The notes under the pieces are model-generated. The model worked only from the letters and a program-made list of their open reading frames with translations. It searched no databases and had not been told where the DNA came from. Below, in pieces: positions 6,347 through 11,349 of a stretch of DNA of 64,000 nt. The position numbers were made by a program, and so were the translations under genes. This DNA comes from [Mycobacterium] stephanolepidis (GTDB lineage: Bacteria > Actinomycetota > Actinomycetes > Mycobacteriales > Mycobacteriaceae): assembly GCF_002356335.1 (NCBI RefSeq), contig NZ_AP018165.1:744001-808000 (forward strand). Reading direction: 5' to 3'. Position 1 is the stretch's first letter. Every line of letters begins with the position of its first letter.

Positions 6347-7312
6347 TTATCGCGGAGGGGGTGGCTTCAAGGCCTTTTCGAGCTGAGGCGTCAGTTGTTC
6401 CAGCGCATAGATCCGAGCCAGTGGGCCGCCGAGCCGAAGGGCGTTCACCACCGGACTGTCTGCCGGGATGTAGACGGCGCGCCCCTCGGTGACCGCACGT
6501 AGATCTGCAAGACCATTGGTGGACTTCGCCTGCTGTTCGGTGGCTCCCACCACCACCAGGAGGTCCTCGTCGGCCTTGGCCTTCAGTTCGCCATCCGGTA
6601 CGTGGCCGGAGTATCGCTGGCTCAGGAACCCCAGTCCGTCGAAGACTGCGCGACGTGGGTCGCGGAAACCCAACAGGAAGGTGCCTTGTCCGTCTGCGAC
6701 CCAATCGACCACCGCCGTGCGGTTGACCCAATGCTGGTGCCCGGTACGTATCTGGTTGTACCGAGTCCCAACCTCTTCGGATCGCATGCGCGCCCGATCG
6801 GACTTGCCCAGGGCCCGGCCAATGGTGAAGAGCTGTGTATACCAAGGTGTCTCGGCACGATCGATTCGGTCCTCCGAGACCACCGTCGGCGCGATCTTCG
6901 TCAATCTGTCGTAACTGGGTCTGTCGATATCGGCGCCGGTGGCCAGGATGACATCGGGTTTGGCGGCGGCGATGGCGTCGAAGTTCAGCTCTGAGCCCGA
7001 GACGACGGGGGGATAGGAGACCTCCGGAACGACCCAGGGGTACATCGGATACTCCGGCAGCGTGGACCGGACGCCGACGGGTTTGGTGCCCAACGACTGC
7101 ACCAAGTCTTGGTCGTTCCATCCGAGGGTGACGACGCGGTTAGGTCGTGTCGCGAGGAATGCTCCGCCGTACCTGTGGGGGATGCTGAGCGGGAAGCCGT
7201 CCGGAGTCAACGTCGGCGGCGCGGCGGGCGGCGGACTTTGGTTGCGAGAACACCCGGCAAGGGCCAGCAGCGTCAGCATCGCGGCAATGACGCGCCATCC
7301 GGCTGTTGCCAT
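6347..7312 (-). CDS. fecB2: Periplasmic iron/siderophore-binding lipoprotein, FecB2-like
   Basis: A 321-residue ABC-transporter substrate-binding protein of the cobalamin/Fe3+-siderophore class. The signal peptide ends in the lipobox LALAGCS, so the mature protein is lipid-anchored outside the membrane. Typical features are RVVTLGWNDQDLVQSLGTKPVGV near the N-terminus and FDAIAAAKPDVILATGAD. A proline-rich stretch follows the lipobox. Start at ATG 7312 is supported by a -10-like TAGTTT 7 nt upstream (leaderless). M. tuberculosis Rv0265c (FecB2) is the likely counterpart. No IdeR iron box was seen upstream and no permease or ATPase genes are adjacent. Confidence 0.8.
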   Translation of the reverse strand: MATAGWRVIAAMLTLLALAGCSRNQSPPPAAPPTLTPDGFPLSIPHRYGGAFLATRPNRVVTLGWNDQDLVQSLGTKPVGVRSTLPEYPMYPWVVPEVSYPPVVSGSELNFDAIAAAKPDVILATGADIDRPSYDRLTKIAPTVVSEDRIDRAETPWYTQLFTIGRALGKSDRARMRSEEVGTRYNQIRTGHQHWVNRTAVVDWVADGQGTFLLGFRDPRRAVFDGLGFLSQRYSGHVPDGELKAKADEDLLVVVGATEQQAKSTNGLADLRAVTEGRAVYIPADSPVVNALRLGGPLARIYALEQLTPQLEKALKPPPPR

Positions 7313-7319
7313 GCCGAGC

Positions 7320-7325
7320 AAACTA
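7320..7325 (-). promoter_or_regulatory. -10 element TAGTTT, leaderless start of the FecB2-like gene
   Basis: Reading the minus strand, TAGTTT is followed by 7 nt and then the ATG at 7312, the spacing expected when transcription begins at the first base of the start codon. No Shine-Dalgarno sequence is present. Confidence 0.5.
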
Positions 7326-7540
7326 CCATCGGCCGGCGCCGATATACGAATGTGATCGCAATCGGCTCGGGGTGAATCGAACGACCGGGCATCGGGTTGC
7401 ACGCCTGCCACCTGCGGGAACGTCACCAGGCGGGATGTTGTTTGCTGGCCGTTGCCATTGACGCTGGGGTGGGACCTTCATACGTTTGCGCCGTTCCCAG
7501 CTCGTGCTACGGGTCAGAGCAACAGTGCAATAGGAAGCCG

Positions 7541-8530
7541 ATGATTAAGCATCTCACCCGCCGCGCGACGGTCGCCCTCGTCGTGGCAGCCGCGGCGATG
7601 TCGCCTGCCGCCTACCCGGCAGTGGCCGATACGGCAACGCCGCTCAACGGCCTGTTCGCGTTGTCACCCGGCAGCTGCGCGGAGGGCCGAGCCACCGGCT
7701 CCTACTTCCGCATGATCTTGCCCGCCGGTGACGCGTCCGGCCCCTACCTCGCCAACGGCGATTCGATGTGCTCGGATAACACAGTCACCCTGCTGGCGCC
7801 CGGTACCGATGGTGGCCTGAAGTCGGGTGAGTATCAGCCGCAGCCTGGCAACGCATTCGATGGAAACGGAAATGCGGTGTCCGGCAGCATTACCCAGCCA
7901 GTCAAGTTCTACGGTGTGGGCTTTTCCACGGCGTCGAACCAAACCGATCCACAGACCGGCCAGGGCACTGCCACTCCCCAGATCACCGTCAGTGGCAACA
8001 AGCTCGGCGGTGACCTCAGTGCTTTCGGTGTGACCTGGAACAACCAGGTGTTCAACCAGGGATCGCCGAAACCCGGTGGCGCATTCCCGGGTAAGACCAC
8101 ACCGGTGACCGGCACCTACGACCGCAACACCGGCGCATTCATCGTCGAGTGGACCAGCCAGATCGTGGGCGGTCCCTTCAACGACTTCACCGGACTATGG
8201 CACCTGGTCGGCAAGGTCGGGGGCAGCCCCGGTGGCGCAGCTGTGGCCGAACCGCCACCCCCTCCTCCGCCGGGCGCCCCACCGGCAGCGGCGGATGCGC
8301 CGCCCGCGGTGGCCGCGCCGGCGGCCCCCGGGCAGGTTGTTGTGCAAGCTGGACAACAAGTGGTGGCACCGCCACCGCTGTCGGCCGGCCAGCAGCTCAT
8401 CGCGCTGCCGGTTGACGACAATCCCCGCACCATCACTCCGCCATGGGTCATTGCCCTGTTGGTGTTCGTGGCGATCGGCGGCGGAATTCTGTTCGTGGTG
8501 GGGGAGCGGATCTTCAGCCGTGGCCGCTGA
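7541..8530 (+). CDS. Secreted, C-terminally membrane-anchored protein of unknown function
   Basis: A 329-residue exported protein. Start chosen at ATG 7541 behind an AGGAAG ribosome site; it begins a clean signal peptide (MIKHLTRRATVALVV..., cleavage likely after AVA near residue 29). Residues about 32-235 form an extracellular domain related to the protein at 9527-10306: both contain an ALxPG start, DGGL-x-x-G-x-YQ, NQ/RxxFNQG and IVGGPFN-x-FTG-x-WHL. A Pro/Ala-rich linker follows, and a hydrophobic helix near 300-322 ends in a basic tail. First gene of a four-gene cluster; function unknown. Confidence 0.83.
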   Translation: MIKHLTRRATVALVVAAAAMSPAAYPAVADTATPLNGLFALSPGSCAEGRATGSYFRMILPAGDASGPYLANGDSMCSDNTVTLLAPGTDGGLKSGEYQPQPGNAFDGNGNAVSGSITQPVKFYGVGFSTASNQTDPQTGQGTATPQITVSGNKLGGDLSAFGVTWNNQVFNQGSPKPGGAFPGKTTPVTGTYDRNTGAFIVEWTSQIVGGPFNDFTGLWHLVGKVGGSPGGAAVAEPPPPPPPGAPPAAADAPPAVAAPAAPGQVVVQAGQQVVAPPPLSAGQQLIALPVDDNPRTITPPWVIALLVFVAIGGGILFVVGERIFSRGR

Positions 8531-9545
8531 GAGGTTGGCTGAGACGTCTCAGCCGGCCCTGCCTTCGTACGCCGACATCGTCGGTGAGGAGGCTGTTGTC
8601 GCCGAGGCCGGACCGGCCCCACGGCCCCGGTGGCGGTTTGTCGCGCTCATCGCGCTTGGTGTGCTGCTATTCGCGTTGCCGGTGGTCACCGGGATGTTCA
8701 CACGTGCCGCGGGCGGTCAGCAGCTGCTGACCGAGTTCCGCCCGTTTGTGTCCTCGGAGGTGATCGCCAAGTTCCGCGGTTACCTGGACACCGTCGACGC
8801 GGCTCGTACCGATGTGCAGGCGACCCAGTCGATCGCGGGAGGGCATTACGAGCGACTGGATACCTTTGTGGCGCAGTATCCGTCGATTCGTCAGGATATG
8901 AACGGTCTGCTCGATGCGGTCGATGGTCAGATAGGTAACTACGGGCAGTTGCGAGCCGTGGGCCCGTTCGATGTGCTGCCGTTCCTGCTGGCGGTGCCGG
9001 GACTGGTCTTGGTCGGCGCCGGTGTGTGGGGACTTCGGCGCACTAGCAACGGCGAAAAGGCTTTCGGTGCCCGGATTCTCGCGATCCTCGCGGCGGCTGT
9101 GCTCATCGCCGTGCCCTTTGCGGACGGGCTCTTTTCCCGTGCCCCGGCGGGTGCGCAGCTCATTGACGCGTTCACCCCGATCATGACTCACGAGCGGGTG
9201 GCCGCGGTACAGCGACACTTCGTGGTGCTGGTCGCGGCGGAAGGGGAATTGGACACCCAGTTCCTGGGTGATCTGCGGCAGCATGACTCGGCCCGCGCGG
9301 TCCCGGGTATCGACGCCTTCGTTTCGCAATGGCAGCCCATGACAGCGGATTTCGCTTCGCTGATCGGGGTGATGGCCGACAACGTCGACAATTTCGGCAG
9401 GGTAGTGGCGCTGGATCGGATCACGGCCCCGCTGGGATTCCGATCATTCAACTACTTCGGGTGGCTTTTCCTCGTGCCCGGTGTGCTGGCGGCCGCTGCC
9501 GCTATTGACGTGAAAGGAGCCGCACGGTGGCCCAGAAAACGATGA
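8520..9545 (+). CDS. Four-helix membrane protein with internal duplication
   Basis: A 341-residue integral membrane protein. The GTG at 8520 overlaps the preceding gene by 11 bp and has GGGGGAG upstream. Predicted helices lie at about 40-57, 152-172, 184-202 and 310-328, each pair enclosing a roughly 95-105-residue extracytoplasmic loop. The halves are related: ALPVVTGMFTRAAGGQQLL-x-EF in the first matches AVPFADGLFSRAPAGAQLI-x-AF in the second, and QIGNYGQL...FLLAVPGLVL matches NVDNFGRV...LFLVPGVLA. It is probably the membrane partner of the two secreted paralogues on either side. No family name recognised. Confidence 0.83.
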   Translation: MAAERLAETSQPALPSYADIVGEEAVVAEAGPAPRPRWRFVALIALGVLLFALPVVTGMFTRAAGGQQLLTEFRPFVSSEVIAKFRGYLDTVDAARTDVQATQSIAGGHYERLDTFVAQYPSIRQDMNGLLDAVDGQIGNYGQLRAVGPFDVLPFLLAVPGLVLVGAGVWGLRRTSNGEKAFGARILAILAAAVLIAVPFADGLFSRAPAGAQLIDAFTPIMTHERVAAVQRHFVVLVAAEGELDTQFLGDLRQHDSARAVPGIDAFVSQWQPMTADFASLIGVMADNVDNFGRVVALDRITAPLGFRSFNYFGWLFLVPGVLAAAAAIDVKGAARWPRKR

Positions 9546-10306
9546 CGCGCGGCACATTTGGTGTGGCGCTGGCGGCCGTGGTGCTGGTGACGGCTCCGGC
9601 CTGTGGATCGGAGAAGCCGACCGAGTCTCCGCTCACCGGGCTGCTGGCATTGGAGCCCGGGAAGATCGAAGGGAACAAGCTCAGCGGCACCTGGTTCAAG
9701 ATGGTGCAGCCGGGCGGCAACCCCCAAGAGGGTCCGTTCATGCCCAATGCGAATTCTCCTGTGCCGCAAGCGGCTGCAACACTGCTCTCGCCCGGCGCGG
9801 ATGGCGGTTTGGTACTGGGCGATTACCAGGGTGAGCCGGATCCAGCGTTCGATGAGGCCACCGGGTACTCACTGGCGGCCCGCGTCACACAGCCGACGAA
9901 GTTCTTCAATATCGAGTTCGGTATCTCCACCAACAAGATCGACCCGCAGACCCAGCGCGAGCTGCCGGCGCCCTCGGCCACGGTGGCCGGCGACCAGATC
10001 TCGGCGGACGTGTCGGCATGGGCCGCCTCGTGGAACCGTCAGGAGTTCAACCAGGGCGCGCCCAAGCCGAAACCCAAGGAGCAGGCACAGATTCCCGGTG
10101 AGGCACGCGCCAAGCAGGTGTGGGAGTTCGTAGCCGGGCGCTGGGTCGGCCGCGACTCCGTGGACGGCGAAAGCCCCAAAGCCACCGGTACATACGACAA
10201 GGACACCAAGAAGTTCACTCTCGACTGGACGAGTCTGATCGTGGGTGGACCGTTCAACAGCTTCACGGGAGTGTGGCACCTCGAAGGCGTGGTGAAAGAC
10301 CGATGA
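9527..10306 (+). CDS. Exported protein, paralogue of the protein at 7541-8530
   Basis: A 259-residue exported protein starting at GTG 9527 with AAGGAG 8 nt upstream; it overlaps the previous gene by 19 bp. A signal sequence ends near VTAPACGSEK; the cysteine could be lipidated, although the residues before it are not a canonical lipobox. The mature part (LLALEPG, DGGLVLGDYQG, EFNQGAPKP, IVGGPFNSFTGVWHLEG) is clearly related to the ectodomain of the first gene in the cluster but lacks its proline-rich linker and C-terminal helix. Function unknown; likely works with the membrane protein encoded immediately upstream. Confidence 0.82.
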   Translation: MAQKTMTRGTFGVALAAVVLVTAPACGSEKPTESPLTGLLALEPGKIEGNKLSGTWFKMVQPGGNPQEGPFMPNANSPVPQAAATLLSPGADGGLVLGDYQGEPDPAFDEATGYSLAARVTQPTKFFNIEFGISTNKIDPQTQRELPAPSATVAGDQISADVSAWAASWNRQEFNQGAPKPKPKEQAQIPGEARAKQVWEFVAGRWVGRDSVDGESPKATGTYDKDTKKFTLDWTSLIVGGPFNSFTGVWHLEGVVKDR

Positions 10307-11349
10307 GTTCGACACCGGCAGAAGAGACGGCTCCGATCGCAGCTCCGATTGCTTCCGTTGGGGGCAGGCCCACCAAAGAACGCGTATTCGGGATAGCCGT
10401 AAGGGTATTCGCTGCCATTACCGTGATCGGCAGCGTGGCCGCCATTACCCAGCTCTCGTATTCGCCTGCGCGTGCGCCCATCGTCGGATACCAGATCGTG
10501 AACCGCGACGGATCGATTCCCGAAGGTGCCATCCCGATCCCGGTACCCCCGCCGGGACCGCAATTGATTGCGCCGCTGCCGCGCCCTCAGGTGCCTTCGC
10601 ATCCACCGGGTCAGGCTGCCGGACCGTTTGGTGCGCTGCCTTCGGTGACCGACCGCGGGCTTCCGATATCCGTCGCGCAGCCCTGCCCCTTCGGCTGGCC
10701 GGCGCCCGGCCCGGATGAGCAGGGTGGGCTGGCTTCGCTGATCGACGTAGCTCCGGCCGCGGGTGTGTTCTCCTCGGAGGCGTTCGCTCCGGCTACGGCG
10801 TATGAACCGATCCTGAAGATGATGGGTCCGGTGCTGGCTCGGATCTCCCCGCTGCTCTCCCGGCATCCGTGGGCGATCGACCAGTTCGTCACCCGTTTCC
10901 AGACGGTCATGGTGCGCGTTCTCGAGGCGATCCTGCCCTACTACGGCCCCTACCGGAACGATGTCCTGAAGGCCGAGGGCGACCTCGCGAAGGCGTTGAC
11001 TCCCTTCCTGGAAAGCCTGTACAACACGCCGACGGCGCAATGCCTCGTCGCCTGGGAGGCACAGCGCATTCGGGACGCCCGTGGGGGCCGCCCGCCGGCG
11101 CTGCGCCTGCATGATCTCGGCAAGGTGATCGACCTGTATCGCTCGACGCACTGGCGTGAGGGTGACGACGATCCGCCACCCGCGCCGCTCCCGGCCTACG
11201 AGTTCACGCCGGCGCCCGCGCCGCCACCGCCGTCGGATGCTCCGGCCGCCCCGAGCACGTCGCGACCGGTGATCCCCAACTTCCCGACACCGACCCCCGC
11301 CCCGGCGCCCACACAGACGTCCTCACCGGCCATCTCCTCGTCTCTCTAG
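10303..11349 (+). CDS. Proline-rich single-pass membrane protein of unknown function
   Basis: A 348-residue protein overlapping the preceding gene by ATGA. One hydrophobic helix near residues 28-48 follows a short cytoplasmic N-terminus. Then come a Pro-rich segment (IPIPVPPPGPQL), a globular helical region (ILKMMGPVLARISPLLSRHPWAIDQ..., residues about 165-270) with two cysteines, and a long Pro/Ala/Thr-rich C-terminal tail like those that cross the mycobacterial cell wall. Last gene of the four-gene envelope cluster. I do not recognise the family; the architecture suggests a periplasmic or wall-spanning component. Confidence 0.78.
   Translation: MSSTPAEETAPIAAPIASVGGRPTKERVFGIAVRVFAAITVIGSVAAITQLSYSPARAPIVGYQIVNRDGSIPEGAIPIPVPPPGPQLIAPLPRPQVPSHPPGQAAGPFGALPSVTDRGLPISVAQPCPFGWPAPGPDEQGGLASLIDVAPAAGVFSSEAFAPATAYEPILKMMGPVLARISPLLSRHPWAIDQFVTRFQTVMVRVLEAILPYYGPYRNDVLKAEGDLAKALTPFLESLYNTPTAQCLVAWEAQRIRDARGGRPPALRLHDLGKVIDLYRSTHWREGDDDPPPAPLPAYEFTPAPAPPPPSDAPAAPSTSRPVIPNFPTPTPAPAPTQTSSPAISSSL

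Follow-up and report, generated by a model that had tools for sequence, protein, structure and literature searches.

The window analyzed here is a 64,000-nucleotide stretch of [Mycobacterium] stephanolepidis DNA (contig NZ_AP018165.1, positions 744,001–808,000 of the forward strand). At 7541–11349 (+), it carries four overlapping genes, g1–g4, located there by an earlier note made from the letters alone. We propose, with a probability of about 45%, that these genes encode an envelope lipid-transfer complex. Such a complex would carry a lipid or another hydrophobic molecule from the plasma membrane's outer leaflet to external barrel carriers, or in the reverse direction. The duplicated two-helix unit of g2 would extract the molecule from the membrane or insert it there. 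The g3 lipoprotein and the anchored barrel of g1 would receive the molecule and pass it onward, and g4 would be an exported partner of g3. An ABC-2 type transporter may supply the molecule or the energy in Tsukamurella, in some Gordonia, and in one further genome. The conserved operon, the export signals, the duplication, one gene fusion, and the ABC linkage are seen in the sequence. The physical complex, the lipid as ligand, the direction of transfer, and the identity of the lipid are what we infer. The lipid-transfer reading follows from three weak or indirect lines: a YceI-like barrel, a TTYH-like g2, and single-unit relatives of g2 in a phospholipid-synthesis cluster.

Operon conservation and the exported proteins

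The order g1–g2–g3–g4 on one strand was found in 37 of the 41 matched family loci. The exceptions were a remnant (L023), a contig end (L055), a g3–g4 fusion (L056), and a locus without g2–g4 (L090). The contig of L055 ends between g1 and g2, and its g1 lies on another contig, L091. Neighboring genes overlapped or lay at most 20 bases apart in 34 of 38 g1/g2, 36 of 40 g2/g3, and 12 of 39 g3/g4 pairs; these counts depend on gene starts that a script assigned in the relatives and that may be inaccurate. L066 and L079, with split frames of g1 and of the ABC gene, respectively, were scored as having those genes. In the window, the overlaps are 11 bases for g1/g2, 19 for g2/g3 (4 with the g3 start at 9542), and 4 for g3/g4, in agreement with the earlier claim that all four genes overlap or nearly do so. 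The remnant L023 (8151–9255) has shortened g2, g3, and g4 and no g1 match. At L090 (9596–11124), g1 is directly followed by an ABC-2-like permease gene, and g2–g4 and the ATPase are missing there.

A search with g3 returned 599 relatives at E ≤ 0.001. Members of Nocardia, Gordonia, Williamsia, Tsukamurella, Aldersonia, Antrihabitans, and Mycobacteroides were among the 120 of these that were listed. Relatives of window g3 occur in M. franklinii and five other Mycobacteroides/Mycobacterium contigs (89–94% identity), and in one M. chelonae contig (76%). The family of G001 matched in 41 of 401 genomes and the order sample in 4 of 298 (single-sequence query); the phylum sample had g1/g3 matches in 3 of 396. 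Only 5 or 6 candidates were scored per genome in the large samples, so the absences are soft. At the genus level, 1 of 41 genomes matched in the GTDB genus of G001 (G001 itself), 8 of 59 in Gordonia (genus of G622; two with g1 only), 25 of 98 in Nocardia (genus of G553; one of the 25 is a decayed remnant, and four are cut by contig ends), and 11 of 16 in Tsukamurella (genus of G437). G688, G699, G727, and G733, which belong to the G553 genus and show g1 alone, break at contig ends, as does G683, so these five give no evidence for gene separation. In five assemblies of the Nocardia group (G517, G723, G724, G729, and G746), the contig that carries g1 is not the one that carries g3; the low-complexity tail of g1 may be the reason. 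We rejected a plasmid-borne system. The sole matching plasmid record (L012, NZ_LR134461.1, labeled as a Tsukamurella plasmid) carries ftsY, and its five cluster proteins are 100% identical to those of the 4.9 Mb contig L086; it is probably a mislabeled piece of chromosome.

The g1 gene (7541–8530, +, 329 aa) encodes an exported domain predicted to be a barrel (~7643–8218), a Pro/Ala-rich stalk, and a C-terminal membrane anchor (~8447–8503). Its paralogue g3 (9527–10306, +, 259 aa from GTG, with an ATG at 9542 as alternative start) encodes a lipoprotein-like exported protein, also a predicted barrel. The two had been described as related exported domains, and BLASTP bore this out (E = 8e-57, 38% identity across 249 aa). 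None of 500 shuffles reached the alignment score, and the DGGL, FNQG, and IVGGPFN-FTG-WHL blocks that they were said to share are all visible in the alignment. In a tree built without L012, L023, L055, L091, and the g1 of L066, g1 and g3 formed two clades of 39 rows each with a support of 100/100, the bootstrap being unsettled.

In window g3, a Cys stands where one is expected in a lipoprotein, but a simple lipobox pattern, which 19 of the 41 g3 proteins match, detects no standard lipobox there. This Cys at the end of the signal peptide is nearly invariant among 37 aligned sequences, namely window g1 and 36 members of the g3 family. Distant relatives were found in the phylum sample, where g1-like proteins adjoin g2 proteins in G749 and G844. 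Two double-barrel proteins of G749 end in an LPNTG or LAFTG sorting signal, and the gene of each adjoins one whose product matches Sortase in Pfam (E = 2e-27 and 1e-26; L116 8149–10880 and L117 9305–13934). One double-barrel gene stands directly before the single g2 and a g1/g3-like lipoprotein gene, and the other lies ~21 kb away. The sorting signals and sortases indicate that the barrels are exported in G749 and probably wall-anchored there. Judged from the nearly invariant Cys of g3 and the sortase-type signals on distant g1 relatives, the barrels of the g1/g3 family are predicted to be exported. The L116/L117 region also holds what we take to be lipoate-binding, DsrE-like, and heterodisulfide-reductase-like genes.

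The double-barrel proteins beside sortase genes, as well as the stalk and anchor of window g1, are consistent with a surface scaffold, in which the barrels would be on display at the wall or surface, as adhesins or wall-binding domains, and g2 would do no more than anchor or assemble them. We consider this explanation quite unlikely. The g1 of the Tsukamurella group, at 198 aa, has neither stalk nor anchor. The ectodomain units of g2 are retained, with 12 invariant positions across 24 sequences, and the g2 family also occurs without barrels, which argues that g2 is more than an anchor. The linkage to ABC genes would also be left unexplained.

The fourth gene, g4 (10303–11349, +, 348 aa), had been described as a single-pass, Pro-rich protein with a long tail. 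We found a single N-terminal hydrophobic stretch (residues 28–53, membrane helix at ~10384–10461), a Pro-rich spacer, and a Pro/Ala-rich tail, so the single helix and the Pro-rich composition stand. Some relatives (L073 and L077) lack the long C-terminal tail. The part kept in the relatives examined is a domain with two Cys residues (~residues 126–262, ~10678–11088), which the description had left unmentioned. Among the genomes examined, g4 was found only in the mycolic-acid family, and the stretches retrieved from the distant genomes G749 and G844 yielded no g4 relative. In L056 (7394–9022, genome G569), g3 and g4 are fused in one reading frame of 542 residues. Provided that this is no assembly error, the fusion places the g4 domain outside with g3. 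It also supports a physical association of the gene products, which is likely.

Duplication in g2 and its single-unit relatives

The g2 gene (8520–9545, +, 341 aa, GTG start) encodes two transmembrane–ectodomain–transmembrane units (~8634–9026 and ~9072–9506) with four hydrophobic segments. The halves align at E = 6e-14, a value equaled by none of 500 shuffles, and as profiles of 24 sequences they match with an hhalign probability of 99.7% (E = 9.5e-26). These results confirm that g2 is a four-helix protein made of two related halves, as had been noted. In 4 of the 24 relatives (L067, L071, L073, and L074), the halves align only at E > 0.05, and the repeat is not visible singly; in G749 and G844, the halves are 41–46% identical. 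A simple hydropathy scan of 41 g2 proteins, including that of the window, gave four hydrophobic segments in 34, three in 6, and five in 1. Six of the 24 g2 proteins touched the SPW repeat model of Pfam (best E = 3.2e-4), which we took as a generic two-helix resemblance.

The g2 profile matched 16 of the 396 phylum genomes, and 13 of the 16 gave no match to g1/g3. Reading frames from these 13 genomes gave seven single-unit and six two-unit forms (one partly masked). The duplication is thus independent of the ectodomains. The earlier note had matched the two ectodomains to the two halves of g2 in a 2:1 or pseudo-symmetric complex. This pairing is unsupported, since the number of g2 units and the number of ectodomains vary independently; in G749, a single g2 is accompanied by an adjoining double-barrel protein and lipoprotein, and a second double-barrel protein is encoded at a distance. 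What survives of that interpretation is a conserved envelope cluster with exported ectodomains whose products probably associate. The genes also occur apart, as seen for the g2 relatives in those 13 genomes and for the g1 of L090.

The single-unit relatives provide a hint on the ligand. In five genomes of close kin (L130–L134), the single-unit gene lies 3' of genes for a CDP-alcohol phosphatidyltransferase and a myo-inositol-1-phosphate synthase in all five cases. It precedes a gene for a family 4 glycosyltransferase–PHP fusion in four, the fifth being interrupted by a contig end. The family names come from Pfam for the L130 proteins and one L132 protein, and from BLASTP matches to these for the others. 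The single unit aligns with both halves of distant g2 proteins at E values down to 8e-24 and with window g2 at 2e-13. In the example of L130 (7052–11677), the unnamed two-helix protein has 160 residues. The position of these relatives in a phosphatidylinositol-synthesis cluster may point to inositol phospholipids, in one lineage only; an inositol phospholipid as the ligand of the window complex would be a guess.

The ABC transporter partner and neighboring genes

An ABC ATPase gene follows g4 in 14 of the 41 family loci; the other 27 have none adjoining, and neither does the cluster of the window. In 11 Tsukamurella-group genomes, the ATPase is fused to a permease-like part (491–499 residues; the frame is split in L079), and in G432, G309, and G552, an ABC ATPase gene is followed by a separate permease gene. 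The arrangement of an ATPase and a separate permease after g4 recurs in L107 and L108, two further loci from the genus of G622. In the g3 tree, the 14 ABC-linked loci form one group with a support of 97/99. The linkage is compatible with the export or extraction of a hydrophobic molecule. The ATPases match ABC_tran, and the permeases match ABC2_membrane_4 weakly. A permease search in eleven genomes yielded weak matches in G595, G331, G622, G305, and G437 and none in G001, G002, G553, and G372; it also missed the fused permease of the G437 cluster, so its negatives carry little weight. At L074 (G622), a permease-like gene is convergent beside g4 with no ATPase seen adjoining, and this locus was not counted as ABC-linked. 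L119 has a short ABC-like match (30 residues) ~0.6 kb past its last barrel gene.

The best NCBIfam model for the ATPase is lantibiotic protection, which brings up the main rival of the lipid-transfer reading. The barrels could bind toxic hydrophobic molecules (antibiotics, peptides, or oxidized lipids) outside, and g2, with the ABC transporter where present, would clear them from the membrane. The patchy presence across three genera (8/59, 25/98, and 11/16 genomes) fits such an accessory function. Lipocalins of the BcnA type are among the best matches of the g3 model, and they are reported to raise antibiotic resistance (PMC5350466). They are also reported to be linked, in general, to a membrane protein gene, lcoA, in lipid-radical detoxification (PMC9113575). 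Nevertheless, we regard this capture-and-expel function as unlikely. The ATPases scored 157.9 and 166.3 bits against a family cut-off of 309.75, and they stayed below every curated NCBIfam cut-off among the best 25 of 185 and the best 25 of 179 rows. PADLOC gave no match for the four proteins (0/4 at E ≤ 0.01), which leaves a known or candidate anti-phage defense system without support. Single-unit g2 relatives in a phospholipid-synthesis cluster would not be predicted by this rival either.

Apart from the ABC gene, no directly adjoining gene recurred across genera in a crude reading-frame clustering of 44 loci. Acyl-CoA-dehydrogenase-like genes were present at 7, short-chain-dehydrogenase-like genes at 6, and enoyl-CoA-hydratase-like genes at 5 of the 44 loci, the last two including the window. 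These three fatty-acid-metabolism-like genes, assigned by sequence inspection, lie loosely at 1.1–6.7 kb from the cluster in varying orientation. They appear to belong to very common families and, with no control set, were counted neither for nor against any reading. Upstream of the cluster, a divergent gene (6347–7426) encodes a putative iron-siderophore-type binding lipoprotein, also by inspection.

Comparison with known families

Neither Pfam nor NCBIfam gave a match above cut-off for any of g1–g4. Together with the PADLOC result, this agrees with the earlier remark that no known system was recognized, and by its sequences the cluster belongs to no named family. We found no paper on it in the literature searched, only partly with the cluster itself as target and with subscription journals largely out of reach, and we do not assert that it is unpublished.

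In a weak fold match, the g3 model has the bacterial lipocalins YceI, BcnA, and BcnB (PF04264) as its eight best VIA matches. One entry, 7bwl, titled antibiotic sequester, is presumably a member of the YceI family. As with bcnA, which is generally found beside lcoA (PMC9113575), g3 is exported and encoded beside a membrane protein. Membership of the barrels in YceI was rejected at the level of sequence: none of 37 members gave a YceI row at E ≤ 10 (best E to any Pfam family, 0.0066), and hhalign against 10 YceI proteins returned a probability of 0.5%. True YceI genes occur elsewhere in all five cluster-carrying genomes searched. The partner ATPases and permeases resemble ABC-2 transporters of what we take to be the LanFEG/BcrAB type; unlike these, the ATPase falls below the curated cut-offs listed above, and in the Tsukamurella group it forms one protein with the permease.

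The g2 model resembles the eukaryotic Tweety proteins (TTYH1–3), whose TM2–TM5 bundle extends into a helical ectodomain (PMC8361169). Helices leading from the membrane into such an ectodomain are predicted for g2, and the model aligns with the TTYH portion after the first transmembrane helix. This is a weak fold match as well. The g2 profile gave only a claudin (E = 1.6) and no Tweety match against PDB sequences, and no Tweety family was among the best 25 of 37 Pfam rows for the g2 proteins. Tweety proteins have five transmembrane helices with the N terminus outside, whereas window g2 has four hydrophobic segments. The same fold match could suggest a complex that shapes membranes or forms vesicles, a role proposed for prominin and Tweety proteins; Prom1 and Ttyh1 induce extracellular vesicles (PMC11405016). 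We find this highly improbable, since it depends solely on the weak fold match and explains neither the barrel partners nor the ABC genes.

For the lipid-transfer reading, the likeness lies in the proposed partner logic of a membrane protein and a soluble lipid carrier, and one Tweety protein speeds lipid transfer; such transfer has been measured for TTYH2 and APOE. Unlike Tweety, g2 is bacterial and visibly duplicated, and its carriers would be barrels instead of apolipoproteins. It is a long shot that the cluster is a bacterial counterpart of Tweety-type lipid exchange, in which a duplicated extractor, with a single-unit relative in phosphatidylinositol lipid synthesis, and dedicated barrel carriers would form an unrecognized route by which an inositol lipid or lipoglycan crosses the envelope of some mycolic-acid bacteria. 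The passage of lipids out of the plasma membrane and into the outer layers of mycolic-acid bacteria is only partly known. A conserved operon of a lipid-transfer-like membrane part and lipid-binding-barrel-like partners would be a concrete candidate for it. If the Tweety resemblance is true, g2 would represent a bacterial relative or analogue of a eukaryotic family, with an origin traceable by duplication.
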